The notes below the pieces were generated by a model. It was not told the origin of the DNA. It saw nothing but the letters and a program-made list of their open reading frames with translations, and made no database searches. Shown in pieces: positions 195 to 27,584 of a DNA stretch of 33,514 nt; position 1 is the first letter of the stretch; every line of letters begins with the position of its first letter. The translations under genes and the position numbers were made by a program. Origin of the DNA: Candidatus Chloroploca asiatica. GTDB taxonomy: Bacteria > Chloroflexota > Chloroflexia > Chloroflexales > Chloroflexaceae. The stretch lies in assembly GCF_002532075.1 (NCBI RefSeq), contig NZ_LYXE01000146.1:1-33514 (forward strand), in the 5' to 3' direction.

Positions 195-2843
195 TTACCT
201 GGTAAGAAGGTCAATTTCTGCGAGTTGCAGAAAGCGGTTGCCATAGTCGTCCTGACTCAATTCGGTGCCAAGGAGCCGGACGCAGCCGAGTGTGCGCGGG
301 GCAATGGCGAAGGTGATCGGCTGGTTGCTCGGTTGGGGATAGCCGAACCGCGTGACCAGGGGCCGCCAGTTGCCCACGTCGGTGAAACGCGGGTCGCGCG
401 GATCACAGGTGTGGGTGGCATCCGTCAACGCATACTGCAGCACAAAGTCTTGGGGAAAGCCCAGCGAGCGATCGTCTGGGCCGGCCCGCGGGCTGAGGCG
501 TACCAGGTCAACCTGGGTCGGTTGGGCCAGCACCACCGCCGCCCACTCACTACTCGCCAAGTGCTCGGTATGGATGCCACTGCTCCAGGCCGTCTGGGGA
601 TTGCCATCACGGAGCAGGCCGGGACTCCAGTCGGCCCAGGTGGACGAGGCGGTGGCGTCGCGCAGCGCGAGGGCGCGTTCTCCGTCAAAGAGGGTCACGT
701 CGGCGAGTTGGAGAAAGCGATTGCCATAGTCATCCTGACTGAGCTCGGCCCCGAACAGCCGGATACAGCCGAGCATGCGTGGGGCAAAGGTGAATTCAAC
801 GGGTTGGTTACTCGGTTGGGGATAGCCGAAGCGGGTGACCAGAGGCCGCCAGTTGCCCACGTCGGTAAAGCGCGGGTCGCTGGGATCACACGTGTGATTG
901 GCATCCGTCACCGCATACTGCAGCACGAAGTCTTTGGGAAAACCCAGCGAGAGATTATCAGGGCCTGCGCGAGGCACGAGCCGCACGCGGTCAACCTGAC
1001 TCGGTTGCGTCAACACCACGGCGGCCCACTCGCTACTCGCCAGGTGCTCGGTATGGATACCACTGCTCCAGGCGGTGTGGGGGCTCCCATCAAGCAAGTG
1101 GGCGACACTCCAATCGGCCCAGGTCGACGAGGCCGCCGCTTCGCGGAGGGCCAACGCGCGTTGGCCGTCCAAGACAGTCACGTCGGCGAGTTGGAGAAAG
1201 CGATTGCCATAGTCATCTTGACTAAGCTCGGCCCCGAAGAGCCGGACACAGCCGAGCGTCCGCGGGGCAAAGGTGAAGTCGATGGGTTGGTTGCTCGGTT
1301 GCGGATAGCCGAACCGCGTGACCAGAGGCCGCCAGTTGCTCACGTCGGGAAAGCGCGGGTCGCGAGGGTCACAGGTGTGATTGGCATCCGTTACCGCATA
1401 CTGCACCACAAAGTCCTTGGGGAAGCCCAGCGAGCGATCGTCCGGGCCGGCACGCGGAGTGAAGCGCACGCGATCAACCTGGGTCGGTTGGGCCAACACC
1501 ACCGCGACCCACTCACTCCCGACGAGATGCTCGGTATGGATGGTACTGCTCCAGACGGTATGCAGCGCATTGTCATTGAGATAGGACGCACGCCAGTCAG
1601 CCCAGGTGGACGAGACGGCGACCTGACTGATGGCGAGCTCGGTGAGGCTCGCGGTCGGAGTGGGGCTCGGGGTTGCCGTCGGGCTCGCCATCGCCGTCGG
1701 GCTCGCCGTCGCCGTTGTTGTTGCCGTGGGGAGTGGAGTTGACGTGATCTGAACCATCAAGCCACGGGTGCTCTCAAGAAACGAGGTGCCGGCGTAGGTA
1801 ATCTCACTCTGCCGCAAGAGTGATGGCTCACCTAGATTAAAGGTGAGCTCAGTCGTGGCCTCATCATGAAGAGCCTGCAAGACAAACGTCCCCACAACAA
1901 ACGTACCACTCGGGAAGGGTGCCTGTAGCGCACCCACAACGAGATCCAGCGTACCTTCGGCATTATTCACCTGACTCAAGAGACGGACAGGCAGCGCCGA
2001 GCCTGGTTCAAGCTTCAGAAGCGCAACCTTGCTGGGATCAAAATCGAGGAACGCCGCGACCCCATCAACCATGCGCGACCCTGCCACCACCTCGATTGTC
2101 ACAGTCATCGTTGAGCCAGCAGCAAGCGTCAGCGTTGAGGGTGTCAGGCGTAACATTATTTGAGCTTCGGGCAACGGCGTTGCAGTTGGCAATTGCGTTG
2201 ACGTCGTTGTTGGTGAACTGGTCGGCGTCGCAGTCAACGTCGGCGTCGGGGTCAGCGTTGCAGTCAACGTCGGCGTCGGGGTCAGCGTTGCAGTCAACGT
2301 CGGCGTCGGAACCTCGGCAATCTCCAGGGTCAAATCCCTGATTGCTTCCAGGATTGAAGTGCCAACCCAGGTAAGATCACTCTGGCGGAGCGGGGAGGTA
2401 TCACCGCGATCGAAGGCGAGCGTGGTCGTGCCTTCAACGTCCAGCGCACGCACTTGAAACGTGGCGACCGCAAATGTCCCACTGGGGAAGGGGGCATTGA
2501 GCGCTCCCACAACCAGATCAACCGTGCCTTCAACGGGATCAACTGTGTTTAGCAAAACCAGCGGCAAGGCCGTCCCCACCTCCAATGACTCAAGCGCCAC
2601 GCGAGAGGGATCAAAGTTGAGGAAGGCCGCAACCCCATCTACCGAACTGGCTCCGGCCTCGACCTCAATAGTCACGGTTGCTGTTTCACCTGGCGCAAGG
2701 GTCAAGGTGGAGGGATTGAGTTGCAACGTGATTGATGACTCAGCATGGAGGCTTACGAGGGGCAAAGCCAGACCCGCCAGCAAGAGTGCGGTCATGATCA
2801 AGCTGAACCAGAGGAAGGATGACAGACGACGGATTGGATCCAT
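195..2843 (-). CDS. Secreted protein with two cohesin-like domains and three discoidin (F5/8 type C) repeats
   Basis: This 882-residue protein was not assigned a gene name. An N-terminal hydrophobic signal (about residues 1-35) is followed by cohesin-like domain 1 (about 42-175), a TPTLTAT linker (175-225), cohesin-like domain 2 (229-365), a second Thr/Pro linker, and three tandem 161-residue modules (about 395-882). Each module has the discoidin-type opening ASSTWADW...DG..HTAWSS and the same internal HTCDP and GYPQPSNQP blocks. Discoidin folds usually bind sugars and cohesins usually bind dockerins, so a surface scaffold or adhesin is inferred. The ATG at 2843 was chosen over an upstream in-frame start because AGAGG lies about six bases before it. 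It lies 171 bases downstream of the dockerin-bearing 1321-aa gene on the same strand. Unlike its neighbour it does not end in an LPL-type tail. No catalytic domain is visible. Confidence 0.85.
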   Translation of the reverse strand: MDPIRRLSSFLWFSLIMTALLLAGLALPLVSLHAESSITLQLNPSTLTLAPGETATVTIEVEAGASSVDGVAAFLNFDPSRVALESLEVGTALPLVLLNTVDPVEGTVDLVVGALNAPFPSGTFAVATFQVRALDVEGTTTLAFDRGDTSPLRQSDLTWVGTSILEAIRDLTLEIAEVPTPTLTATLTPTPTLTATLTPTPTLTATPTSSPTTTSTQLPTATPLPEAQIMLRLTPSTLTLAAGSTMTVTIEVVAGSRMVDGVAAFLDFDPSKVALLKLEPGSALPVRLLSQVNNAEGTLDLVVGALQAPFPSGTFVVGTFVLQALHDEATTELTFNLGEPSLLRQSEITYAGTSFLESTRGLMVQITSTPLPTATTTATASPTAMASPTATPSPTPTASLTELAISQVAVSSTWADWRASYLNDNALHTVWSSTIHTEHLVGSEWVAVVLAQPTQVDRVRFTPRAGPDDRSLGFPKDFVVQYAVTDANHTCDPRDPRFPDVSNWRPLVTRFGYPQPSNQPIDFTFAPRTLGCVRLFGAELSQDDYGNRFLQLADVTVLDGQRALALREAAASSTWADWSVAHLLDGSPHTAWSSGIHTEHLASSEWAAVVLTQPSQVDRVRLVPRAGPDNLSLGFPKDFVLQYAVTDANHTCDPSDPRFTDVGNWRPLVTRFGYPQPSNQPVEFTFAPRMLGCIRLFGAELSQDDYGNRFLQLADVTLFDGERALALRDATASSTWADWSPGLLRDGNPQTAWSSGIHTEHLASSEWAAVVLAQPTQVDLVRLSPRAGPDDRSLGFPQDFVLQYALTDATHTCDPRDPRFTDVGNWRPLVTRFGYPQPSNQPITFAIAPRTLGCVRLLGTELSQDDYGNRFLQLAEIDLLTR
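221..1640 (-). repeat. Three tandem 483-bp repeats encoding discoidin modules
   Basis: The block starting CGAGTTG recurs at 221, 704 and 1187, giving an exact 483-bp (161-codon) period. Long stretches between copies are nearly identical at DNA level, for example the block around GCCATAGTCATC. The reading frame is preserved in all three copies, which indicates recent in-gene duplication or gene conversion. The high identity makes this stretch prone to assembly collapse and copy-number change. Confidence 0.9.
2221..2310 (-). repeat. Three 30-bp tandem repeats in the PT-rich linker
   Basis: Three near-identical 30-bp units, at 2221, 2251 and 2281, encode the TPTLTATL linker between the two cohesin-like domains. 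The unit is ten codons, so copy-number change would alter linker length without a frameshift. Confidence 0.85.
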
Positions 2844-2957
2844 AGAAAACCTCTTGGTAGCACAGGGAAGGTTGGGCAAGATGATATGGTTTCAGAAGGG
2901 CCATGTTTTCGTACCACATGGCGGGCTCGTGATGCCGCAAGAAACAGGGTGCGTGCT

Positions 2958-2998
2958 CCTGAGCTCTCACAGGTCTTGAAGACCTGTGAGGGCTCAGG
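2958..2998 (-). terminator. Hairpin between the two cohesin genes
   Basis: CTCACAGGTC (2966-2975) pairs with GACCTGTGAG (2981-2990). The stem is extended outward by CCTGAGC/GCTCAGG, giving about 17 paired bases with one wobble and a 5-nt loop. No U-tract follows in the minus direction. It sits 17 bases after the stop of the 1321-aa gene, so it may terminate that transcript, stabilise it, or reduce read-through into the 882-aa gene. Confidence 0.55.
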
Positions 2999-3014
2999 AT
3001 GAAACGTGATTGAA

Positions 3015-6000
3015 CTACCGGCGGATCAGGGGCAAATAGACCCGTCCACCTGCGCCAGTCAGGGTCAACTGCCACGGCGCTTCATCTGGCGTGAGCGCTT
3101 GCCCACGCAGGGTCACGAGGCTCTGACGGAGGGCGAGATCATCCACCAGCGTGATCTGGGTTCCCTGCGCATCACGACGCGCACGGAAGGTCATCGTCGC
3201 CAGCGGAACAACCCCGGTCGGCGGTGTTGCGTTGAGCGTCCCGCGCACCAGATTGATCTGCCCCGCAGTGGGAAGCACCTCACGTTGTAATTCCATTTCC
3301 AGGGTCGGATCGACCACCAGATCGACCACCTCCAAGACAGCCGGGTCAAAGTCGAAATAGGCCGCGATGCCATCAAGTCCACCAGAAGGCGCTTCAACCG
3401 CCACCTGCAACGTAACCTCCTCACCGGCCCTGACATCGCGACCTACCTGCGCGAGCGTCAGCGGGGCCTGAGTCAACCCCGTGCGGCTGGCGTTCAGCAC
3501 ATCTGGCTCACCCGACTGGCCAAAATTGCTTACCAGTAACGAGAAATCAACGACGCTAATCATCTCATCGCCATTGAAATCAGCCCGTGCATCGTAGCCA
3601 TCCGCACCGCTCATGCGCCCAAATGTCCCGGCGAGCAGGGAAAAATCGAGCACGGTGATGCGATTGTCATTATTTGCATCGCCTGTCGGCAACGAGCCCA
3701 CCTGGATCACCTGGGTCGTATCGGTAAAGGCCTGCGTATGTGCAACGCGCAGTGACTGGGGATGCTTTACGCGCAGGGTATAGGTACCTGACACCACACC
3801 CGCAAGCTGGAACTGCGCCCGATCATCGGTCGTGTGCTGCGCACGATACAGAGTCGTGGTCGCGGTCGGCACATGCAGGGCCACTTCAAGCGGCACCTGC
3901 AGACGCGCATGCGGCGGCTGAGGGCGTCCTTGAAGCTGGACGGCGACGGTAAAGGGTGCGCCTTCAACGACCGTGATCGTTGCGGGGCGGACGTCTTCTA
4001 GAAGCGACGCCCCCTCAAAGGTGACATCGCTCTGGCGCGGAGCCACCTGGCTTAACGTCAATGCGGTTCCGTCTGGGGCAACCTGTTTGGCACGGAAAGT
4101 CACAGTCGCCAGCGTAAAGGTTCCTTGCGGCCACGGTGCTGTGATGATGCCACGAGCGAGATCAAGCGTGCCAGCCGTATTGTCCAGTTTTTCGAGCAAG
4201 CTAATTGGGAAAGCGGTACCGGCAACCACCTGCGTGACTTCGAGCACCTCGGGATCGAAGGTCAGATAGGCAGCGGCGGCATCTACGTCATAGTCACCCG
4301 TGCGAATCTCAAGCGCCACGTTTATTGTGCCACTCACCGGCATCGTCGTTGCGGCAGGCTTGAGTTCCATCACCACCCCGGTTGCCGGATTGGCGCGGGC
4401 CGCAAAATCCTGTCCGGTCACATTGGCGTTGACCGTCACATTGCGTGTCGCTGGCTCAAAGCGATACCCCTCCTTCGTCGGGGTCAGCGTATAGGTTCCC
4501 GGTGGCACGTCGTTTAAGGTATATGCGCCCTCGGCGTTGGTCGTCGCATTCCGGGTTCCATCGCTGACCGTCACACCGGCGAGGCCAGCGCCCTCCGCAT
4601 CAGTCACCTGACCGCTGATTGTATAGGTCAACAGACGGGCCGCAAAATTCTGTCCGGTCACATTGCCATTGACCGTCACATTGCGTGTTGCTGGCTCAAA
4701 GCGATACCCATCCTTCGTCGGGGTCAGCGTATAGGTTCCCGGTGGCACGTTGTTCAGCGTATACGCCCCCTCGGCGTTGGTCGTCGCATTCCGGGTTCCA
4801 TCGCTGACCGTCACACCGGCGAGGCCAGCGCCCTCCGCATCAGTCACCTGACCGCTGACTCTAACCGCCGGGCAGAGGGAAGCGGTTCCTTCTTGCACCA
4901 GCGCATAGTCAAACAATGTATCAACGCCAATCGCCTCGTTGGGAAAATAGACCTCGGCGCGCAGCCCGGTATGGCCGCTCTGCTGGATCGTCAGACTCAC
5001 CTCGTGACACATCCAGCCCTGCTGACTAACCGTGAACGTACGGTAGGCATTGTATTGCTCGCCGCCCATCGCCCAGAGGGCGAGCGTGCCGGTGCGCGTC
5101 GTCCCGGGTGGAGCGTGGATCATGAGCGCAAAGGTGTAGGTCGCGCCTGGGGTGGGAACATAGGGAATATCCTGGTAGAACGACGTACACTCAGGCTGCT
5201 CACCCCGGTTGGTCGCGAGAAAGCGCGTGCCATGAAACGCCGTCACGCCATAGATGCCCGACTCATAGGTGGTTCTATTGCACGAGCCATACCATTGCCA
5301 GGGAGCCGGGCCAGCGGGGTCTTCAAACGAGTTATTTTGCAGCGTCGCGCTCGCCGCTGTGACCGTGATCGGGAAAAAGACCGACCCCTGTGCTGGGGCA
5401 CGAAACCAAGCGGTGCCCTCCTGGACGAAGTCAAACTCGATGCGATACGAGCCGGGGGTTGCCGGCGCACGCAGGGTAAACTGAAAGACGCCAATGGCCC
5501 CTGGTTGCACTACCCCGGGGCTAGCGATGCGATTCGGCCCAAGCCAGGAGGGATCATAGAACGGCGGATGGTTCTGATCGCGCGGGAGCGCAGTGATCTT
5601 GGTATTGGCATCCCAGGCCCCAGTTCCCGTATTGCGCAATTGCACCTGCACCTGCTGGGTGCTACCGGCCACCATCTGCGGTTGGAAGGTCTGGCTGACA
5701 AACTCGCCGCTGTAGGTTGCGGGGGGTGGCGCAACCGTCCCATTGTAACGGCGAATATCCGATATTCTGCCAGGATCAAGGACTGAAGGACCAAGAGTAG
5801 AGGTTGAATATGAACTGGGATTGTTAATCGTATATCGACCATCACTCCGCCTGCCGATCACAACAACCCAGTGTGCTCCACCATCGACACCTACAATCAC
5901 CGGGCGTCGGTTGCGGAGCTCCGTATCAATGTCACCAGATCCTGAGTATGTTACCCCCGCAGGCATACACTGATTGCGCCAATAGAGCAGACATCCATTC

Positions 6001-6980
6001 AGATACCCTCCTTTATTTGTCAGGCATTGATTCAGTGCAGCAGGGTCGGTAAACGAAGGCTGATAATAATTGAAGAGCATCGCCATAGAAGTCATCGCAC
6101 ATCCATGGCTCCCAATCGTTACACTACATGTTCCCAGTCGATGCGAAGCCCACCGCGCATCACCTTGATTGAAGTAGGGCACGCTGATAGGGGCGATTTC
6201 CTGAGCAAGCATTGGCGGTGCAGCCTCACGATCAATGAGAGTAAAACCTTGATCAGTTGCATCTGGCGCAAGCCCAGGAATGAAAGTGGCAACGATGTCC
6301 GCAAAAACCCCTTCTTGTGAACCTCCTAACGGATAAATGAACTCATAGACATCCGTAGCGTACGTAAGCAACAGATGGGTATTCCAATGATCTCCAGCAA
6401 ACAAGCGATACGCACACGCATCCTGCTGATTAACCACCAGATGTTGACAGGCTGCAGCAGTAGCTGCAGAGCGATGGTTGGATGGTGAGTCTAACCATTC
6501 TTCCAGAGAAAGCTGATCCGGATTCGCAAACATTTGCACTACCAACGGGCTAGTAGCATGATCAACCAAGATGTGCAGCACTCCCTCAGGTTGATAGAGC
6601 GTCGCCTTCCCGGTTGAAGGATACCAAAGGCGATAGCCCTGTTGCGTATTGACGAGTGCCTGCCAGATAGCAGTACGCTCACTTGGCGCACGCTGGATCA
6701 AAGGCAACCACACTTGGGTGCGTTCAACCTGAAGCGGAGGCTCTGTCAGCGTGGTTGTTGGCGTCATCGGCACGGTCGCACGAAATGTTGCGAATGTAGG
6801 CTCAGACAAAGCTGGGCGAGTCTCAAACTGCGCTGAAACAGCAGGCAACGGTTCATACGAAGACGAAGAGACAGCTGCACCTACCGTTGTGTGGCTCAGG
6901 TTAAGGGAAGCCAACAGCAGAGCAACTATGGAGAAGATCATCAGGCTCATCATTCTCGCGAGCAAGGATGGGCGATTCAT
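3015..6980 (-). CDS. Large secreted protein: C39-like peptidase, Ig-like, two carboxypeptidase-regulatory repeats, cohesin-dockerin-cohesin
   Basis: This is a 1321-residue multidomain protein. A signal peptide (about 1-35) and a Ser/Pro/Thr spacer are followed by an internal VWLPLIQR (90-97). A C39-family papain-like peptidase (about 265-410) has Cys294 in SHGCAMTS and His370 in GGAHWVV; the usual third-position Asp is Asn387 in NNP. Next come an NBR1-like Ig domain (about 420-530), a jelly-roll-like region (about 547-700), two 80-residue carboxypeptidase-regulatory-like repeats (about 706-864), a cohesin-like domain (about 865-1010), a type I dockerin (about 1097-1154) with two intact DxNxDxxI calcium loops, and a second cohesin-like domain (about 1168-1300). 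The extreme C-terminus is VYLPLIRR. AGGAAGG precedes the ATG. A secreted, calcium-dependent assembling peptidase is inferred. Its substrate is unknown. Confidence 0.85.
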   Translation of the reverse strand: MNRPSLLARMMSLMIFSIVALLLASLNLSHTTVGAAVSSSSYEPLPAVSAQFETRPALSEPTFATFRATVPMTPTTTLTEPPLQVERTQVWLPLIQRAPSERTAIWQALVNTQQGYRLWYPSTGKATLYQPEGVLHILVDHATSPLVVQMFANPDQLSLEEWLDSPSNHRSAATAAACQHLVVNQQDACAYRLFAGDHWNTHLLLTYATDVYEFIYPLGGSQEGVFADIVATFIPGLAPDATDQGFTLIDREAAPPMLAQEIAPISVPYFNQGDARWASHRLGTCSVTIGSHGCAMTSMAMLFNYYQPSFTDPAALNQCLTNKGGYLNGCLLYWRNQCMPAGVTYSGSGDIDTELRNRRPVIVGVDGGAHWVVVIGRRSDGRYTINNPSSYSTSTLGPSVLDPGRISDIRRYNGTVAPPPATYSGEFVSQTFQPQMVAGSTQQVQVQLRNTGTGAWDANTKITALPRDQNHPPFYDPSWLGPNRIASPGVVQPGAIGVFQFTLRAPATPGSYRIEFDFVQEGTAWFRAPAQGSVFFPITVTAASATLQNNSFEDPAGPAPWQWYGSCNRTTYESGIYGVTAFHGTRFLATNRGEQPECTSFYQDIPYVPTPGATYTFALMIHAPPGTTRTGTLALWAMGGEQYNAYRTFTVSQQGWMCHEVSLTIQQSGHTGLRAEVYFPNEAIGVDTLFDYALVQEGTASLCPAVRVSGQVTDAEGAGLAGVTVSDGTRNATTNAEGAYTLNNVPPGTYTLTPTKDGYRFEPATRNVTVNGNVTGQNFAARLLTYTISGQVTDAEGAGLAGVTVSDGTRNATTNAEGAYTLNDVPPGTYTLTPTKEGYRFEPATRNVTVNANVTGQDFAARANPATGVVMELKPAATTMPVSGTINVALEIRTGDYDVDAAAAYLTFDPEVLEVTQVVAGTAFPISLLEKLDNTAGTLDLARGIITAPWPQGTFTLATVTFRAKQVAPDGTALTLSQVAPRQSDVTFEGASLLEDVRPATITVVEGAPFTVAVQLQGRPQPPHARLQVPLEVALHVPTATTTLYRAQHTTDDRAQFQLAGVVSGTYTLRVKHPQSLRVAHTQAFTDTTQVIQVGSLPTGDANNDNRITVLDFSLLAGTFGRMSGADGYDARADFNGDEMISVVDFSLLVSNFGQSGEPDVLNASRTGLTQAPLTLAQVGRDVRAGEEVTLQVAVEAPSGGLDGIAAYFDFDPAVLEVVDLVVDPTLEMELQREVLPTAGQINLVRGTLNATPPTGVVPLATMTFRARRDAQGTQITLVDDLALRQSLVTLRGQALTPDEAPWQLTLTGAGGRVYLPLIRR
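4397..4858 (-). repeat. Tandem 240-bp duplication encoding the carboxypeptidase-regulatory-like repeats
   Basis: The block beginning GGGCCGCAAAAT recurs with a 240-bp (80-codon) period, with copies at about 4397-4636 and 4637-4858. Most of the length is identical at DNA level. The encoded module carries VSGQVTDAEG...GVTVSDGT...YTLTPTK.GY. The low divergence implies a recent duplication or ongoing conversion. Confidence 0.9.
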
Positions 6981-7084
6981 AGCAAAGCCTTCCTACAATG
7001 ATGCGAGAGCAATCAATCATCAAGCAAGCGGACAAGCAAAGCCACTGCTTTCTCTCGACACACTATCCCATGACATGCTAGGGT

Positions 7085-7549
7085 TCAATGCCGCGACGTA
7101 CCACCTGTCATTTTCATATAAGACAAAAGTCTTACCTGGCGATAGTACTCAACCGCCGCTGCAATGCGGTTGGGGGCACCAAGTTTCTGGCGCAGGCTGA
7201 GCAGGTGTTGGCGCACAGTGGAAAGTGAGAGGTGCAGATGGGCGGCAATCACGCGATCACTTGCACCGCTGGCAACCATTTCGATCACCTTTTGCTCACG
7301 CGGGCTCAGTGGGGTCGCGCAAGGGGTGCATGCGGTGAGTGGCGGGCCATAATGCAGGTCATACTTGAGCGCGGCAACGGTGCGGTTCGCCGCGTCAAGT
7401 TTGTGACCGGCAAGCTGAATATATGTGGTGACGGTGTGAAGGCCAAGATAGAGCTGGGCCGCAATCTGGCCGTCGTTGTGACCACAAAGAACGAGACGCA
7501 TTACGTCATGTTCACGTGGGGTAAGGAGGGGACGGTTGATCGTTGGCAT
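7085..7549 (-). CDS. Small regulator made of two tandem LuxR/GerE-type HTH domains
   Basis: This 154-residue protein contains two complete GerE-like modules and nothing else: LTPREHDVMRLV... at about residues 8-65 and LSPREQKVIEMV... at about 80-140. A short Cys-containing linker (CTPCATP) joins them. No receiver, PAS or ligand domain is present. The start at 7549 was preferred over an in-frame ATG at 7564 because GAGGAG lies seven bases upstream of it. It is transcribed in the same direction as the 1321-aa secreted protein, 104 bases upstream of it, so it is a natural candidate for controlling that locus. One chain with two DNA-binding heads could mimic a LuxR dimer. That is inference. Confidence 0.8.
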   Translation of the reverse strand: MPTINRPLLTPREHDVMRLVLCGHNDGQIAAQLYLGLHTVTTYIQLAGHKLDAANRTVAALKYDLHYGPPLTACTPCATPLSPREQKVIEMVASGASDRVIAAHLHLSLSTVRQHLLSLRQKLGAPNRIAAAVEYYRQVRLLSYMKMTGGTSRH

Positions 7550-8682: not shown

Positions 8683-9088
8683 GTCCAATGGCTTACGCCC
8701 ATCCCTGACCGGGGGTCAGCGTGCGGTTGCGTTGCTGTCGGGATCAAGGGCAAAGAGCCGGATCCTGCATTGGCAGTTCCTCGGTTACCCCGCGCCCAAC
8801 GTGCCTCCTGAACACCGTCCTCAGCCGTAGCGGCAGCATACCGCGCCCGTGGCGCGGTGTGGGGGGCGTGCGATCATGAAGGTCTGACCTGAAAGGATCC
8901 CCCTATGAATGATGGTGTGTCCACCTCTGTCCCGCCGGTTGATCTGCAGCACGTCTGCGGCCAGTTGTACCAATCTCTCGCTTGCCAGTCCGTTGCTCGT
9001 GCGTTTTTTGGAAGGCGGAAAGCCCGCCAGGGAAGGCCCAGAATACCTTGATGAACTCTCGGGCAAACCCTGGGCGAAGGAGTATCTT
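8683..9088. other. Gene-poor stretch at the left edge of the foreign-looking block
   Basis: Apart from one 48-codon ORF at 8905-9051, this 400-base stretch holds only a small hairpin (ACCGCGCC/GGCGCGGT, 8840-8858). No transposase fragment, integrase, tRNA or clear promoter was seen. It is the transition from locally typical genes to the block with AACGGCCGTT palindromes. Confidence 0.5.
8905..9051 (+). CDS. Short ORF of unknown status, possible gene remnant
   Basis: An ATG at 8905, preceded by AAAGGA at good distance, opens a 48-codon ORF that ends in TGA at 9049-9051, just before the GH5 ribosome-binding site. The product begins MNDGVSTSVPPVDLQH and becomes basic toward its end (GRRKARQGR). 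I recognise no family. It could be a leader peptide, the 5' remnant of a gene damaged at the island edge, or chance. Confidence 0.25.
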   Translation: MNDGVSTSVPPVDLQHVCGQLYQSLACQSVARAFFGRRKARQGRPRIP

Positions 9089-10141
9089 ATGAAAAAGTCA
9101 AAAAGAAAAATCTTTATTGCAATCATCCTATCGCTTTCTGTGATTTGCACCGCGCTGATCCTGATCGCGCCGCGCTACGGAAATCTTTCGATCAACCTGC
9201 CGTTGGAACACAAGCCCGCTTTCGCTGCGGATACCAGCGCGTACCCAAGCCAACTCCGCGCCGAAGGCAACAAACTGATTGACGTGAACCGACAGGTCGT
9301 GACGCTGCGCGGGCTTATGCCTGCCGACCCGGCGGTGCTGAGACGCAAGGGGAAATTTGACCGCCTCTTCTTCGATAGGATGGCCGATTCGGGCGCCAAT
9401 GTCATTCGTCTCCCTGTCCACCCCGAACGATGGGAACGCGATCCCGATTATTTGTGGCGTTACCTCGATCCGGCTGTTCAGTGGAACGGCGAGAACGGCG
9501 TCTACACCATCATTGACCTGCATTTCATCGGAGATATCGGGACGGATCGCGGGGTACAAATGCCCGACATCAAAATTCCAAGCGAGGATTTCGCTCTTGA
9601 GTTCTGGTTGCAGACGGCTTCCTACTTCAAGGATACCCCGCACGTCATCTTCGAGATCTTCAACGAACCGGCAGACATCTCCGCTTCGGACTGGCGGACA
9701 AACGCCCAGGCTCTGGTGGATGCGATCCGCTCCACGGGCGCAGACCAGTTGATTATCGTCGGGGGCATCGAGTATTCCCGTAACCTGTCCTGGGTGTTGG
9801 AAGAACCGATCAAGGGTGAAAATATCGCCTATGCCGCGCACATTTACCCGGCGCACGGCCGTTATTCTTGGGAGCGCTGGTTCGGGGCTGTTGCTGAAAA
9901 GTATCCAGTGGTGATGACGGAATGGGGCTGGATGGAATCTGATCCGGACGGCAAACAGCCTTACCTGGTTGGCCGCCGAAGTTCCTATGGCGAGCCGCTT
10001 ATGGAATACCTCGATCAGCGTGGAATCGGCTGGGTGGCCTGTTGGTATGATGACGAATGGAAGCCAGCTATGTTTGCGTCAGACTTCGAGCAGGCAACCC
10101 CTTTTGGTGAATTTGTCCTGCAAAGGCTATCTGGACAGTAA
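9089..10141 (+). CDS. GH5-type glycoside hydrolase (cellulase family), membrane-anchored or secreted
   Basis: This 350-residue protein has a basic N-terminus and one hydrophobic segment (about 6-27), indicating a signal peptide or anchor. The (beta/alpha)8 cellulase fold follows. It shows the two diagnostic acids of clan GH-A: Glu193 in FNEP, the acid/base, and Glu278 in VVMTEWGW, the nucleophile. AHIYP supplies the conserved His/Tyr segment between them. The likely substrate is a beta-1,4-glucan or related polysaccharide. The ATG at 9089 has AAGGAG seven bases upstream, so the in-frame extension back to 8909 is unlikely to be translated. It has no linker, dockerin or LPL tail, unlike the second GH5 gene at 13267-15027, and appears to come from a different lineage. 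Confidence 0.85.
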   Translation: MKKSKRKIFIAIILSLSVICTALILIAPRYGNLSINLPLEHKPAFAADTSAYPSQLRAEGNKLIDVNRQVVTLRGLMPADPAVLRRKGKFDRLFFDRMADSGANVIRLPVHPERWERDPDYLWRYLDPAVQWNGENGVYTIIDLHFIGDIGTDRGVQMPDIKIPSEDFALEFWLQTASYFKDTPHVIFEIFNEPADISASDWRTNAQALVDAIRSTGADQLIIVGGIEYSRNLSWVLEEPIKGENIAYAAHIYPAHGRYSWERWFGAVAEKYPVVMTEWGWMESDPDGKQPYLVGRRSSYGEPLMEYLDQRGIGWVACWYDDEWKPAMFASDFEQATPFGEFVLQRLSGQ

Positions 10142-13266: not shown

Positions 13267-15027
13267 CTAACGTCTCACAAAGGGCAAATAAACCATAGGC
13301 GTCAGCACGTAGGGTTCGACCTCTAGCGGAACCTCCACTATCGTGGCTGAAACACGCCGAGGACGTTCACGTAGCGGATCATCAAGCCCCAGCAGATACA
13401 CCACCTGGGCTAGCACTTCGGTCTGTACGAGACTCGTCGGGGTGGCAACACTGGTCACCGTGACAATATAGGAGCCTGGTAGCGCATCAGCCACGGTTTT
13501 GAGCAAGACGCGGAACCGGCCCTCGTCACCAACGATGATCGTCTCGCTGAGCAACTCACCGTTGATCTGCAGCCGTATCGTGTGCCCCACCGGGAATGAC
13601 GTGCCGGTCAGCAGAAAGTAGCTGTCAGGAGCACCATCAGGATAGTTGAGCGTCAGGGTTATGCCAGGCTCAGGGGTGCTAGTCGGCTGCGCGGTTGGCT
13701 GCGCGGTCGGCTGTGCGGTTGGCTGTGCGGTCGGCTGCGTGGTCGGTTGCGCGGTCGGCTGTGCGGTTGGCTGTACGGTCGGTTGCGCGGTCGGCGTTGG
13801 TGTGCCACCCGGCGAAGGTGGGGTGATACGGATCGTACTGGCACGCGCCGCTGTGAATGTCCCCATCGGCGCAGCAATGTCTTGCCATGAACCACTGCCA
13901 TCAACGCCTTCATAGGTCCAACCCATCGCCCCAGCATAGCAGTTGGCGTAGATCGACTCAAGCAATTGCAGTGGCGTCATCCCCGAACCATCGGCATTGG
14001 CGGGAAACTCACCAATAACCACCGGCTTATCAAAGCCAGCTTCCTGCCAACCCAACCGCATCGGCGAGAAAGTCCAGTTATTATCACCATTGGCCCAGGG
14101 GTAATAATGGATCTGATAATAATCCAGATAGCCCTCAGCATCATAGCGAGTCAACGCAGCATCACTGTACCAGTTACCCTCGGCCCCCGGAATAGTATCG
14201 CTATTCCACTTCATCGCTGCGGCACCAACCGTGATCAACTGGTTCGAGTTGCGCCGGATCGCCCCCGTCACTTCGGCAATAAATCGCTGCATCTCAGCAA
14301 GCGACACTGGGTTGTCAATATTCCAGTGGATCGACCCCGACTCCCGAATACCCCACTCGGGCTCATTGATGATCTCCCAGGTGATCACATTGGGATGCGT
14401 CCCAATGGTATAAGAAGTGCCAGCGATCGGGTAGCGCAGCATCGGGATAACGGCGTTGTCAATGAAGGCCTGGCGTTTGGTTGTATCAACCACCAGGTCA
14501 CGCTGATTCTGGATGATGCCATTGGGGCGGGCCAACATATCGAATGACCAGAGCGTAAAGACAATATAGATGTCATGTTTGGCGGCAAGTTTGATCGCAT
14601 CGGCCATGCTCGGGAGCGTATTGGCATCAAACCCGGTCGTCATGCCATTGGCAATCTCAGGGGCACCACGGCCATCAGCAAAGACCCACCAGCGCACACT
14701 GTTGACCCCCCGTGCTTTCAAGGCAGCAAACATCTGATCGGCACTCTCGGTCGTGTACGTGTGCTGCCACCACTCCTCCACCGTGCCAAAATCAGCGCCG
14801 AAGCCCCCATCAAGCCAGGGCACATTCATTCCCGCCAAAAACCAGTGCCCATCACGCCAGGGAACCAGATGGCTCTGATCAGCTGGACAAGCAGCAGCAG
14901 CACGGGCTGTACCTGTAACAGGACTCACGCCTGGGCTCAGGCTCACAATCAGCAGCACAAGCATCATGCAATATGATAGGCCGAGCATGACAGTACGGGT
15001 TGCACCCGAAGGGCTACGGCTCAACAT
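13267..15027 (-). CDS. Secreted GH5-family glycoside hydrolase with PT-repeat linker and C-terminal YLPFVRR tail
   Basis: This is a 586-residue protein. A signal peptide (about 1-45) leads into a mannanase/cellulase-like (beta/alpha)8 domain (about 50-385). Glu222 in INEPEWG is the candidate acid/base and Glu340 in VIGEFPAN the candidate nucleophile, with HYYPW between them. A Gln-Pro-Thr repeat linker (about 395-450) joins a beta-sandwich domain (about 453-560), and the protein ends MVYLPFVRR. The ATG at 15027 has GAGGAGG about seven bases upstream; the in-frame extension to 15048 starts at TTG inside the leader. A promoter with dyads lies upstream. The substrate is a beta-glucan or mannan by family, not provable here. 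Confidence 0.85.
   Translation of the reverse strand: MLSRSPSGATRTVMLGLSYCMMLVLLIVSLSPGVSPVTGTARAAAACPADQSHLVPWRDGHWFLAGMNVPWLDGGFGADFGTVEEWWQHTYTTESADQMFAALKARGVNSVRWWVFADGRGAPEIANGMTTGFDANTLPSMADAIKLAAKHDIYIVFTLWSFDMLARPNGIIQNQRDLVVDTTKRQAFIDNAVIPMLRYPIAGTSYTIGTHPNVITWEIINEPEWGIRESGSIHWNIDNPVSLAEMQRFIAEVTGAIRRNSNQLITVGAAAMKWNSDTIPGAEGNWYSDAALTRYDAEGYLDYYQIHYYPWANGDNNWTFSPMRLGWQEAGFDKPVVIGEFPANADGSGMTPLQLLESIYANCYAGAMGWTYEGVDGSGSWQDIAAPMGTFTAARASTIRITPPSPGGTPTPTAQPTVQPTAQPTAQPTTQPTAQPTAQPTAQPTAQPTSTPEPGITLTLNYPDGAPDSYFLLTGTSFPVGHTIRLQINGELLSETIIVGDEGRFRVLLKTVADALPGSYIVTVTSVATPTSLVQTEVLAQVVYLLGLDDPLRERPRRVSATIVEVPLEVEPYVLTPMVYLPFVRR
13685..13792 (-). repeat. Nine 12-bp tandem repeats encoding the Gln-Pro-Thr linker
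   Basis: The unit GGCTGCGCGGTT, with C/T variants, is repeated nine times head to tail and encodes (PTAQ)n on the minus strand. It is a slippage-prone, in-frame minisatellite that can set the distance between the catalytic and C-terminal domains. Confidence 0.9.
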
Positions 15028-15058
15028 ATGTGTACCTCCTCGTTTCAAAAATCACAAA

Positions 15059-15324: not shown

Positions 15325-15428
15325 AGGTTTCAACGGGGTTGTGAATGACCCTCATTGATGGTAACAGTTTGTGGAGTAGGGTTGGAAAAGTCGTTGCGGA
15401 CTCATCGTCGAGGAAAGGATCTGAACGT

Positions 15429-16703
15429 ATGAATCGTGAGCAGCAGATCGCTCAAATTGCCGAGGTTTGGAATTCACCACGTTTTGCCGGAATTGCACGT
15501 GGCTACAGCGCCGAGGAAGTCTATCGTCTAAGGGGTTCGGTACAGCCCGAGTCAACGCTGGCTCGCATGGGTGCCGAACGCCTCTGGAGTCTTTTGCATA
15601 CCGAGCCCTTTGTCAATACCCTTGGTGCGCTCACTGGCAATCAGGCCGTGCAGCAGGTCAAGGCCGGGCTCAAGGCGATCTATCTGTCAGGGTGGCAGGT
15701 TGCCGCTGATGCCAACCTCGCCGGCCAGATGTACCCCGACCAAAGCCTCTATCCCGCTAATAGTGTGCCGATGGTCGTCAAGCGGATCAATCAGGCGCTG
15801 CAGCGCGCTGACCAGATCCAGCACTCCGAGGGCACCGGCGATACCTACTGGTTCGCGCCGATTATTGCCGATGGCGAAGCTGGCTTTGGTGGCCCGCTCA
15901 ATGTCTTTGAGTTGACCAAGGCGATGATCGAGGCCGGCGCCGCTGGCGTCCACTTCGAAGACCAGCTCGCCTCTGAGAAGAAGTGTGGTCACATGGGTGG
16001 CAAGGTGCTCTTGCCGACCCAGCAGGCTGTCCGTAATCTCGTGGCCGCTCGGCTCGCCGCTGATGTGATGGGTGTGCCAACCCTCATTATTGCCCGCACT
16101 GATGCCAATGCCGCCAATTTGATCACCAGTGATGTGGATGAGCGCGACCATCCCTTCCTCACCGGCCAGCGCTCCCCTGAAGGCTTCTATTATGTCAATC
16201 CAGGCCTCGACCAGGCAATCTCACGCGGTCTGGCCTATGCTGAATATGCCGATATGGTCTGGTGTGAGACGGCTGAACCGAGTATCGAGGAGGCGCAGCG
16301 CTTTGCCGATGCGATCCATGCGAAGTATCCCGGTAAGCTGCTCGCCTATAACTGCTCACCAAGCTTCAATTGGAAGAAGAAATTGAGTGATGCCGATATC
16401 GCTCGCTTCCAGCGTGCGATTGGCGAGATGGGCTATAAGTTCCAGTTTGTGACCCTCGCTGGCTTCCATAGCCTCAATTACAGTATGTTTACCCTCGCCC
16501 ACGGCTATAAGGATCGCGGCATGGCTGCCTACTCTGAGTTGCAGCAGGCCGAGTTCGCCGCCGAAGATCAGGGCTATACCGCTACCCGCCATCAGCGCGA
16601 AGTCGGTACTGGCTACTTCGATGAGGTGAGCATGGTGATTTCTGGAGGTACCTCCTCCACCACTGCCCTCGCTGGCTCAACCGAGGCCGAACAGTTCCAC
16701 TAG
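15429..16703 (+). CDS. aceA: Isocitrate lyase
   Basis: This 424-residue enzyme cleaves isocitrate to succinate and glyoxylate, the first step of the glyoxylate shunt, in the cytoplasm. The diagnostic KKCGH loop is intact, with Cys186 as the catalytic residue. The FEDQ, IARTDA and YNCSPSFNW segments of the family are all present. The length matches bacterial aceA. The ATG at 15429 follows AGGAAAGGA; a longer in-frame ORF from 15345 would add 28 residues that do not look like the family and is rejected. Malate synthase, the next enzyme, lies 126 bases downstream. A TATAAT with paired TGTAAC sites upstream suggests regulated transcription. Confidence 0.96.
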
Positions 16704-16733
16704 GCGCGGACGAAGCCGCAGTCCTCAAAAAGA

Positions 16734-16784
16734 TTTCTGCTGACGCACGATGCAAGCAATGCTTGCATCGTGCGTCAGCAGAAA
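16734..16784. terminator. 24-bp perfect hairpin between aceA and aceB
   Basis: TTTCTGCTGACGCACG (from 16734) continues to 16757 and is exactly complementary to 16761-16784 across an AAT loop. No U-tract follows. Since both flanking genes read the same way and work in one pathway, it may be an intercistronic stabiliser or partial terminator that sets the aceA:aceB ratio, rather than a full stop. Confidence 0.6.
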
Positions 16785-16829
16785 GCTGAAAACTATTTCC
16801 ACATGATGAAATAATGAAAGGACGGATCA

Positions 16830-18428
<1,599 letters not shown>

Positions 18429-25339: not shown

Positions 25340-25382
25340 CACCATAATTGCGAAAAGCACCGTGCCCTCGGGAGCCACCATT

Positions 25383-27584
25383 GTGCGTTATCTGCTTGCC
25401 ATCCTCTGCCTCGTGAGTCTGCTAGTGAGCCTTGGGGCACCTGGAGAGGTCGCCGCCCAGCCCGGAAATGGCGATGTTCAGCGTTTCCTTGAAACCCAAC
25501 CCGGGCCACTCAAGCAACTGCGGGAAGATGGACGGACGGCGGCAAGCATCATCGAGAGTGCAGCCTTTTATTATGGCCTGAGCCCGCAGATTCACCTCGC
25601 CCTGCTCGAAACAACCGCTGGCTTGCTCAGTCAGACTGATCCCGGCGATGAGGCCTTGCAGTCCCCCTTTGGGCACACCGGGCCTCTGGGCTTTGCAGCG
25701 CAGATTGACTGGGCCACCCGCGAGTTACGGGCCGGCCTTGGCCCCTATAGCCGCCCGCCCACCCTGCGCTTTACCGATGGTGTCACCCTGACCCTCACCC
25801 TTGACCAATCCCCCGAGGGGGTCGCTGTCCAACGCTTTCTCGCCAATGGACGTACCTCAACTGAATGGCGCGCAGCCGTCGAACGGTTCGGTGAGGTCTT
25901 TGCTGCCTACTTTGCGAATCAACTGGTTCAGATCGACCCCTCGCGTCCCCCTGGAGAGAATCTCCCGACACCGACCGAGAGCACCCGCTATGGGTTCCTT
26001 TTGCAACCCTGGCCTGCCGGAACACGGGTCGAGCATCTCGCCTATTTTGACCATGTCTATCCTACGGTTGATACCGGCTTACCCGGCAATGGCTATGTAG
26101 TGAATTATCTGGGGCAGGGGGGCGTGCAGTATGATGGGCACGATGGGCACGATTACCATTTCCCTGATCAGCCCATTGGCACACCGATCCTTGCGGCAGC
26201 CTCGGGGATCGCCTATGCGCGTACCCATCGCGGCAATGGCGTCGTCATCCTCCACGACCATGGCTACGAGACGGTCTACTGGCATCTCGACGGCTTTGCC
26301 GAGATCTTTGCTGGTCTGATTGATCGCAATACCGGCGTTCCCGTCCGGGCCGGTGATTTCATTGGGACAAGTGGGCGAAGTGGTTTTGTCCGCGGCACGC
26401 CGCACCTACATTTTGAAGTGCGCCGCTATGGTCGCCAAGTCGACCCCTATGGCTGGTATGGCCCTGGCCCCGATCCTTGCAGTGCGTATGCCGGCTGTTT
26501 GCCGAGTGTCTGGTTGTGGCATGCTTCGCTCATCGGCACCTACAATTTCACGCCGCCCGATCTCCGCTCTGCCGTGCCACAACCGACGCAAGCGACCCAC
26601 GCACAGCATGGCCCACCGGCAACCGTGACGCTCAATCCTCCCGCCGACCTACTCTTCGCTGCGTCGTTTGATGGTCACATTGTGCAGGAGGTTGGACGAG
26701 GGTTTGCCGCCACATCAGGCACAGCCCGGTTTGAGCAAGGACGGGGGAGCGATCAGGCGCTGCTACTCAATCGGTTCGAGCTCGACTATCCCACCGAAGG
26801 CAATCTGAACCTCGCCCAGGGCACCATGAGTCTCTGGGTCAACGTGCCAGACAGTTACCCTCAGGGCACCATCCCGCGGCACTATCTGCTGGCGACGAGT
26901 GCCAACCCCGGCGCAGCCCCGGTCTACCCAGGAACCCTGGCCCTCCGGCGGGATCAGGTTGGACCGGAAGGCGGGCCAGCCTGGGTCTTCTGGACAACGG
27001 CTGACGACGAGGCGAGCCGCGATCTCCTGGCCGCCCCAGACACACTGGCCCCAGGGTGGCACCATCTTGCCATCACCTGGGACGCCGCGACGGGCAGCAA
27101 GGCGCTCTATCTCGATGGAACGCTTGCGGCGGCCACGACCGGCATCACCCTGCCGACCGAAGTTGGCTCACGGCTCCACATCGGTCGCTTCACGAATGGT
27201 GGTGGCCCGAGCAATATGATCCTCGACGAACTACAGATCTTTGACCACGCAATGGAAGCTGAGGCGATCGAGCGCATGGCAACGGCGCTGCCTGAAGACC
27301 GGACAATGCCCGTCGTACTCACCGAGCGCACGATCCGGCTTGACACCAACGCCCTGGCCGCTGATGGCGGCATCGTCGCCGTGCAACTCGGGCTCAATGA
27401 CCAGTTGGAAGACCCCCAGCCCTACTATGATGCCTATCGCTGGACGCTCGAAGCCGAACCTGGCCTGCATGAACTCTCGGTACGGTATACCGACCGGCTG
27501 AATCGCACGACGATCGTCACGCGCACGGTGCTAATCGAAGCCGAAAACCGCGATCGTATCTGGCTCCCGCTGATCGTGTGGTAG
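25383..27584 (+). CDS. Secreted M23 metallopeptidase with LamG-type domain and IWLPLIVW C-terminus
   Basis: This is a 733-residue protein. The signal peptide (about 1-26) precedes a helical region (30-220) and then an M23/LytM peptidase. The zinc motif is HDGHD (His253, Asp257), His301 lies in VYWHLDG, and the HLH motif is His341/His343, so the site is complete. M23 enzymes cut peptidoglycan cross-links. A concanavalin/LamG-like domain spans about 425-645 (TMSLWVNV...GWHHLAITWD...LDGTLAA), followed by a beta-rich domain and the tail IWLPLIVW. The GTG at 25383 was chosen over the GTG at 25362 because GGAG lies eight bases before it and the signal peptide then starts MRYLLAIL. Confidence 0.85.
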   Translation: MRYLLAILCLVSLLVSLGAPGEVAAQPGNGDVQRFLETQPGPLKQLREDGRTAASIIESAAFYYGLSPQIHLALLETTAGLLSQTDPGDEALQSPFGHTGPLGFAAQIDWATRELRAGLGPYSRPPTLRFTDGVTLTLTLDQSPEGVAVQRFLANGRTSTEWRAAVERFGEVFAAYFANQLVQIDPSRPPGENLPTPTESTRYGFLLQPWPAGTRVEHLAYFDHVYPTVDTGLPGNGYVVNYLGQGGVQYDGHDGHDYHFPDQPIGTPILAAASGIAYARTHRGNGVVILHDHGYETVYWHLDGFAEIFAGLIDRNTGVPVRAGDFIGTSGRSGFVRGTPHLHFEVRRYGRQVDPYGWYGPGPDPCSAYAGCLPSVWLWHASLIGTYNFTPPDLRSAVPQPTQATHAQHGPPATVTLNPPADLLFAASFDGHIVQEVGRGFAATSGTARFEQGRGSDQALLLNRFELDYPTEGNLNLAQGTMSLWVNVPDSYPQGTIPRHYLLATSANPGAAPVYPGTLALRRDQVGPEGGPAWVFWTTADDEASRDLLAAPDTLAPGWHHLAITWDAATGSKALYLDGTLAAATTGITLPTEVGSRLHIGRFTNGGGPSNMILDELQIFDHAMEAEAIERMATALPEDRTMPVVLTERTIRLDTNALAADGGIVAVQLGLNDQLEDPQPYYDAYRWTLEAEPGLHELSVRYTDRLNRTTIVTRTVLIEAENRDRIWLPLIVW

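Follow-up and report, generated by a model that had tools for sequence, protein, structure and literature searches.

A three-gene locus of Candidatus Chloroploca asiatica may build a protein network at the cell surface that docks onto itself, a reading suggested by the domain content of its products and to which we give about an even chance. The locus lies in a window of 33,514 nucleotides, the entire contig C145 (NZ_LYXE01000146.1) of genome G000 (Chloroploca, order Chloroflexales), and the organism is described as a filamentous phototroph from a soda lake with a 5.8-Mb genome (PMC6180586). Three genes follow in a row on the minus strand, encoding a protein with two GerE domains (7564-7085), a large chain (6980-3015) and a partner (2879-195), and they may be transcribed together. 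The large chain would be secreted and would carry a variable head, here C39-like, on a fixed C-terminal cassette of cohesin, X module, dockerin and second cohesin (Coh1-X-Doc-Coh2). The predicted calcium-binding dockerin of one copy would plug into a cohesin of another copy, with Coh2 as the first candidate, or alternatively into a cohesin of the partner, which has two cohesins and three discoidin domains; copies would thereby be linked to one another and to a putatively sugar-binding protein. A (Y/F)LP-type tail after the last cohesin would be the likely means of holding the chains on the cell, and the tandem-GerE protein would probably control the genes. That a chain with both modules could self-associate and recruit the discoidin protein had been proposed in an earlier sequence-only reading of this DNA, and our analysis supports the idea.

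The order of modules in the large chain was confirmed. Pfam calls two cohesin stretches (53.0 bits against a cut-off of 24.1) and a dockerin (23.6 bits against 22.9), and the earlier count of four cohesins and one dockerin in the locus, with cohesin-dockerin-cohesin on the large chain, was upheld by Pfam, cassette search, alignment and tree. By eye, both dockerin repeats retain D-x-N-x-D...D, residues that we take to be calcium ligands. CarboxypepD_reg (PF13620) matches the chain in three stretches (E 1.5e-25), the third of which is presumably the X module. The domain calls of the sequence-only reading thus stood. It overlooked the X module and the ways in which Coh1 differs from Coh2, and it missed that the C-terminal tail is conserved, that a different contig carries a paralogous locus and that species exchange heads.

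In the partner, Pfam confirmed the three discoidin domains (F5/8C, PF00754) in three stretches (E 5.5e-22, 78.7 bits against a cut-off of 28.2). Its two cohesins have no Pfam call at E<=1; they were recovered with the cassette of the large chain, align cleanly with other cohesins and were placed by the tree. The content of this 894-residue open reading frame was as first described, and its start was revised: judged by eye from the signal peptide, translation probably begins at the ATG at 2843 rather than at the TTG at 2879.

The alignment of a ten-cassette profile with chain A of PDB entry 3kcp (E 8.3e-14), named cellulosomal scaffolding protein A, runs unbroken through cohesin, X module and dockerin, and cassette profile A1 also aligns with X-dockerins of other scaffoldins (4u3s, 4wi0, 2b59). 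We take 3kcp to be the Coh9-X-DocII end of CipA, the module names, including those of 2b59, likewise being our assumption. As Coh1-X-Doc aligns with the end of CipA, a cohesin and a dockerin sharing a chain is normal for scaffoldins, and the earlier statement that classical cellulosomes keep the two on different chains is contradicted by CipA and the 3kcp alignment. The dockerin at the C-terminus of CipA binds an anchoring cohesin. To the order that it shares with the C-terminus of CipA (3kcp, 2b59) on a single chain, the Chloroploca protein adds a further cohesin downstream of the dockerin as well as a tail at its C-terminus, and its partners are self-contained, with no dockerin-bearing cellulases detected. 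It is this extra downstream cohesin, together with the lack of other detected partners, that is unusual in Coh1-X-Doc-Coh2.

The resemblance of Coh-X-Doc to CipA, and a gene of glycoside hydrolase family 5 (GH5) nearby (8909-10141), would also fit a conventional scaffoldin of the cellulosome type, to which sugar-degrading enzymes attach by dockerins of their own. We consider this very improbable: both dockerins of G000 lie on Coh-X-Doc-Coh chains in which Pfam finds no glycoside hydrolase, the nearby GH5 protein has no dockerin, and Chloroploca is described as a phototroph (PMC6180586). With no detected dockerin of G000 on a glycoside hydrolase, we rejected the cellulosome reading.

In the 5.8 Mb of G000, our own profiles detect 2 dockerins and 8 cohesins. 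They are confined to two paralogous loci, on C145 and C118, and at either locus a Coh-X-Doc-Coh chain is accompanied by a chain with two cohesins. No dockerin was found outside these two Coh-X-Doc-Coh chains in genome-wide profile searches, which strengthens and extends to the genome the earlier remark that no other enzyme carries one; here and below the genomes are mainly drafts, and module absences are limited by completeness and profile sensitivity. This leaves two options: idle cohesins, or a cassette whose docking partners are its own kind and the discoidin protein. Non-cellulosomal proteins of anaerobic methanotrophic (ANME) archaea likewise include chains that combine a single dockerin with as many as five cohesins, and ANME dockerins are described as frequent also on ATP-binding cassette (ABC) solute-binding and S-layer proteins (PMC9012536); unlike in ANME, no dockerin was detected in G000 beyond the cassette chains. 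At the paralogous locus (L001:5317-10923, on G000:C118), the Coh-X-Doc-Coh chain and the two-cohesin partner are followed by a gene that by eye encodes a large LuxR-type ATPase regulator. To our knowledge, the non-cellulosomal cohesin-dockerin pairs already known mostly have no assigned role.

We extended the census with Pfam to 82 Chloroflexales genomes, which hold 39 dockerin places (21/82 genomes) and 40 cohesin places (18/82 genomes). In a hand tally, 18 of the 39 dockerins are flanked by two cohesins in one frame, four of them resting on weak calls: both of G016, where cohesins and dockerin fall below the Pfam cut-offs in the protein scan, G012, with a dockerin match over 23 of 57 positions and one Pfam cohesin stretch, and G055, with a dockerin of 16 bits in the protein scan. 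The other places are 2 that are frame-split, 11 without a cohesin in the chain and 8 that are of other kinds or cut by the contig; one additional Coh-Doc-Coh chain (the second of G037:C158) was found with our own profile only. In G019, a frame change separates two dockerins from the first cohesin, and it falls at both loci (L052:4849-7676 and L061:1403-4281) in the same interval, from first cohesin to dockerin. In G001, of the same genus, a 1726-residue scaffoldin-like chain (L035:669-5846, minus strand) joins four partner-type cohesins to Coh1-X-Doc; its end may be an assembly effect, as it stops shortly after the dockerin near the contig end. G001 and G002 each also have one chain with X-Doc-Coh2 in which Coh1 was not detected. 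G021 (completeness 100%) and G056 (96%) each have one detected dockerin and two detected cohesins genome-wide, all on one chain, and therefore any pairing there would be self-pairing, within or between chains.

The modules might also not pair with each other at all, serving instead as beta-sandwich and calcium-loop units for adhesion or stability, or binding partners from other mat organisms. That they can lack an evident partner is seen in G032, whose four dockerin places come with no Pfam cohesin match in the genome; three of its four dockerin proteins (L034, L044, L048, L053) end in the dockerin plus CP. An absence of pairing would leave unexplained why the module order is retained down to 28% identity, why the loop Asp/Asn positions are largely retained across 16 aligned dockerins, and why dockerin genes adjoin genes for membrane-anchored cohesins in other families, and we regard it as unlikely.

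A tree of 51 cohesins, many of them on long branches, places those that follow the dockerin in the window's family in a single clade (9 rows, support 100/98), and the before-dockerin cohesins of that family lie outside it, in no exclusive supported clade of their own. Family f2 has a group of four of its five before-dockerin rows (98/86) and a less firmly supported one of the six after-dockerin rows (94/86). The partner cohesins fall into a 13-row partner-type clade (100/100) that joins Coh1, not Coh2, with moderate support (84/93).

The closest named relatives are Candidatus Chloroploca mongolica (cassette 94% identical) and Chloroploca sp. Khr17 (90%). In a sample of 251 genomes of the phylum, 15 have cassette matches at E<=1e-10. 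Two of ten stretches read further around such matches show adjacent genes for a docking protein and a membrane-anchored receptor. In G173, from another Chloroflexota family, adjacent genes for Coh-CarbReg-Doc and, further on, M23-Coh-CarbReg-Doc flank one for a cohesin that ends in a membrane stretch (L171:5257-9441, plus strand), a row that resembles a minimal surface-docking operon; both the anchor cohesin (23.5 bits, cut-off 24.1) and the first dockerin (16.6 bits, cut-off 22.9) fall short of their thresholds. G234 has a Coh-X-Doc gene and, next to it, a gene for a cohesin that likewise ends in a membrane stretch, on weak calls as well (dockerin 18.8 bits, the cohesin of the dockerin chain by own profile only). 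The modules are the same as in Chloroploca, and in G173 so is the M23-Coh-CarbReg-Doc order; they differ in that G173 and G234 have separate genes and a transmembrane stretch after the receptor cohesin, where Chloroploca has one chain and a YLP tail. Judging by this gene order, a docking protein and its cohesin receptor may have been fused to give the Chloroflexales chain. As G173 and G234 look like the unfused version, Coh2 would be the first candidate receptor of the dockerin.

Whereas the cassette is constant, the heads above it are exchangeable. We scanned 18 chains with Pfam, 17 of them carrying the full cassette and the other X-Doc-Coh. A peptidase domain lies upstream of the cassette in eight: three have M23, two a C39-like domain below threshold, and one each trypsin, subtilase or C11. 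Of the others, five have only beta-propeller repeats, one has other immunoglobulin-type modules and four have no called head, two of these being cut at the 5' end. The X-Doc-Coh2 chain of G001 combines Kelch repeats with a C11 peptidase. At the orthologous locus of Khr17, regulator and cassette are 92% and 90% identical to those of the window, and the head is M23 instead of C39; the Khr17 chain has no significant similarity to the first 700 residues of the window's large chain (best blastp E 0.058). In an alignment, Candidatus Chloroploca mongolica combines a C39 head of the window type (92%, residues 1-420) with a Khr17-like middle part. Heads are thus swapped above a constant cassette.

The C39-like peptidase domain noted in the sequence-only reading falls just short of the Pfam threshold: Peptidase_C39_2 scores 23.3 bits here and 23.5 in Candidatus Chloroploca mongolica (cut-off 24). 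By pattern, candidate residues are the Cys in GCAMT (293-297), the His in HWVV (370) and the Asn in INNP (385-388), which we take to be catalytic. The head may be an active peptidase; it has no match among PDB sequences at E<=0.1. The zinc-site pattern H-x3/4-D...HxH is absent as written from the three M23 heads, in which HxH is present by eye. For the C118 paralogue, a CHAP or amidase head suspected by eye was dropped, Amidase_6 reaching 14.6 bits against a cut-off of 23.2.

The large chain ends in VYLPLIRR. Alignment A1, which extends down to 28% identity, has P452 invariant and V449, Y450 and R456 at 90% or more. At loci picked for cohesins and dockerins and hence biased, a regular expression for the tail has a match within the final 20 residues in 32 of 216 genes, as against 31 of 6055 internal windows. 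With a looser expression, a (Y/F)LP-type tail is found on 23 of 24 dockerin chains that have a post-dockerin cohesin (the 24th ends in VMLPFIRR), on 2 of 13 chains that lack one (one further chain ends in VYMPWIAR) and likewise on two unclear dockerin chains. Proteins sampled at random were not telling because too few of them were secreted: in G000 the tail is on 2 of 27 secreted-like proteins, one with an end like that of a histidine kinase, and on none of the 116 others; in G043 the counts are 1 of 61 and 0 of 258. Therefore, we used a DNA pattern, YLPL[VIM]xR followed by a stop, which has 119 matches in 12 Chloroflexales genomes against 0 in the scrambled and 3 per reversed control. G000 has 19 matches, G043 three, G037 one, and G058 and G027 none. 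Outside the window, 16 of 17 G000 matches end open reading frames of at least 282 residues, and where the N-terminus of these 16 is visible, 10 of 12 begin with a strongly hydrophobic, signal-peptide-like stretch. Eight tail-bearing proteins that were scanned have no single domain in common.

The tail is thus a candidate anchoring or sorting signal. LPXTG and PEP-CTERM signals, too, are short conserved motifs that end secreted proteins, and in both the motif is followed by a transmembrane helix and a basic end. Unlike them, the Chloroploca chain stops right after VYLPLIRR with no transmembrane stretch following, which ruled out a signal of either type, and no NCBIfam C-terminal signal model matches the chain at E<=0.01. 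Similar motifs occur elsewhere: VWLPLIQR (6690-6713, minus strand; residues 90-97) downstream of the large chain's own signal peptide, VYLPFVRR (13267-13290, minus strand) and IWLPLIVW (at the end of 25362-27584, plus strand) as further tails in the window, and VFIPSIHKN inside the C118 partner (L001).

Several observations weigh against a network built by docking between copies. In 12 of 15 chains, a gap of just 13-24 residues separates dockerin from Coh2 (three chains have 42-55), which may favour docking within a chain, and scaffoldins with both modules usually avoid self-binding through two specificities. The modules occur in a minority of the order (dockerin 21/82, cohesin 18/82 genomes) and are therefore not essential to its lifestyle, and three chains without a post-dockerin cohesin still carry the tail or a near-tail. 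Moreover, an AlphaFold model from an eight-sequence alignment is too poor (mean predicted local distance difference test, pLDDT, 47.2) to inform on docking. With this model, Foldseek returned no match at E<=0.001; the top two of 931 weak matches are the cohesin 5lxv (E 2.6e-3, probability 1.00), weak support for the cohesin fold.

The main rival builds on the same short gap. In it, the dockerin would clasp the Coh2 (or Coh1) of its own chain, so that the head would be displayed on a rigid stalk stiffened by calcium, and no polymer would form. The single-chain sets of G021 and G056, with one dockerin and two cohesins, and the two Chloroploca chains with X-Doc-Coh2 and no detected Coh1 would suit such a stalk as well. 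What it leaves unexplained is why Chloroploca keeps a separate two-cohesin partner, why the 1726-residue chain of G001 has four partner-type cohesins, and why dockerin and membrane-anchored cohesin are separate genes in G234 and G173, and we judge it rather unlikely. Also improbable, if less so, is a stronger form of the self-docking network: a single-gene, self-polymerising scaffold in which one chain has both plug and socket of the cellulosome interaction and admits no outside partner, its hydrolase head being exchangeable and its anchor an undescribed C-terminal signal (h-[YFW]-[LVI]-P-...-R) that would be present on many secreted Chloroflexales proteins.

The sequence-only reading had also assigned the locus its own double helix-turn-helix (HTH) regulator, and this was borne out by two GerE domains and by gene order. 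Searches of 12 genomes gave 11 double-GerE matches, two of them half-length, and seven of the nine longer ones precede a cassette chain encoded on the same strand (C145, C118, C84, C119, C91, C90 and C233), in some cases separated from it by small genes or some 3 kb; the C118 match contains a TAG. The other two longer matches (G002:C70 and G013:C213) lie on contigs without a detected cassette. A promoter and terminator scan gave no signal (1 promoter-like site against 2.5 in shuffles, 7 terminator-like sites against 5.9).

Features of the locus in the window, with the evidence for each
Feature	Position	Strand	Evidence
Double-HTH regulator, two GerE/LuxR-type DNA-binding domains, 159 aa	7085..7564	-	Pfam GerE E 4.3e-25, two stretches; no other domain called
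Large secreted chain, 1321 aa	3015..6980	-	Open reading frame, Pfam; N-terminal signal peptide by eye
C39-like peptidase head	5820..6185	-	Pfam PF13529, 23.3 bits against cut-off 24, sub-threshold; residues by pattern
Two CarboxypepD_reg-like beta-sandwich repeats	4413..4862, approximate	-	PF13620; tandem repeats by eye
Cohesin 1 (Coh1)	3969..4370	-	Pfam PF00963; own profile 1e-47 (profile partly built from Coh1)
X module, CarboxypepD_reg-like, precedes dockerin	3690..3968, approximate	-	Aligns with pre-dockerin stretch of 3kcp and 2b59
Dockerin, two intact calcium-loop repeats	3504..3689	-	PF00404; own genome-wide profile 3.6e-30 (profile includes this dockerin)
Cohesin 2 (Coh2), member of after-dockerin cohesin clade	3060..3461	-	Pfam PF00963; tree
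C-terminal tail VYLPLIRR, candidate surface-anchoring signal	3018..3041	-	Cassette alignment, pattern test, tally by chain type
Secreted partner, two cohesins and three discoidin domains, 894 aa	195..2879	-	Open reading frame; Pfam F5_F8_type_C
Partner cohesin a	2319..2726	-	Cassette search E 5.9e-20; own profile; not Pfam-called
Partner cohesin b	1746..2153	-	Cassette search E 1.2e-19; own profile; not Pfam-called
Three F5/8C (discoidin) domains, outer borders approximate	198..1601	-	Pfam PF00754

Near the locus, the GH5 gene at 8909-10141 (plus strand; Pfam Cellulase E 1.3e-35) encodes no dockerin, and the protein of 13267-15048 (minus strand), GH5-like by eye only, has a YLP tail. The adjacent genes at 15345-18428 (plus strand) are, from their likeness by eye, presumably isocitrate lyase and malate synthase of the glyoxylate bypass. 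On viral contigs, 37 stretches fit the pattern for relatives and 0 were confirmed. Titles and abstract openings among the literature matches listed mention neither a cohesin or dockerin in Chloroflexales nor a C-terminal signal in Chloroflexota, and we do not claim that the architecture is unpublished.

A relative, Candidatus Viridilinea mediisalina, is described as having a dense fibrillar layer along its filaments (PMC7332563). G021 and G056, with one detected dockerin and two cohesins on one chain, reduce the question raised by the self-docking network to whether the chain binds itself. If it does, it would be a natural, minimal material able to assemble itself, with an enzyme head that can be replaced, and the tail offers a testable candidate for an anchoring signal in a phylum whose cell-surface biology is poorly known.

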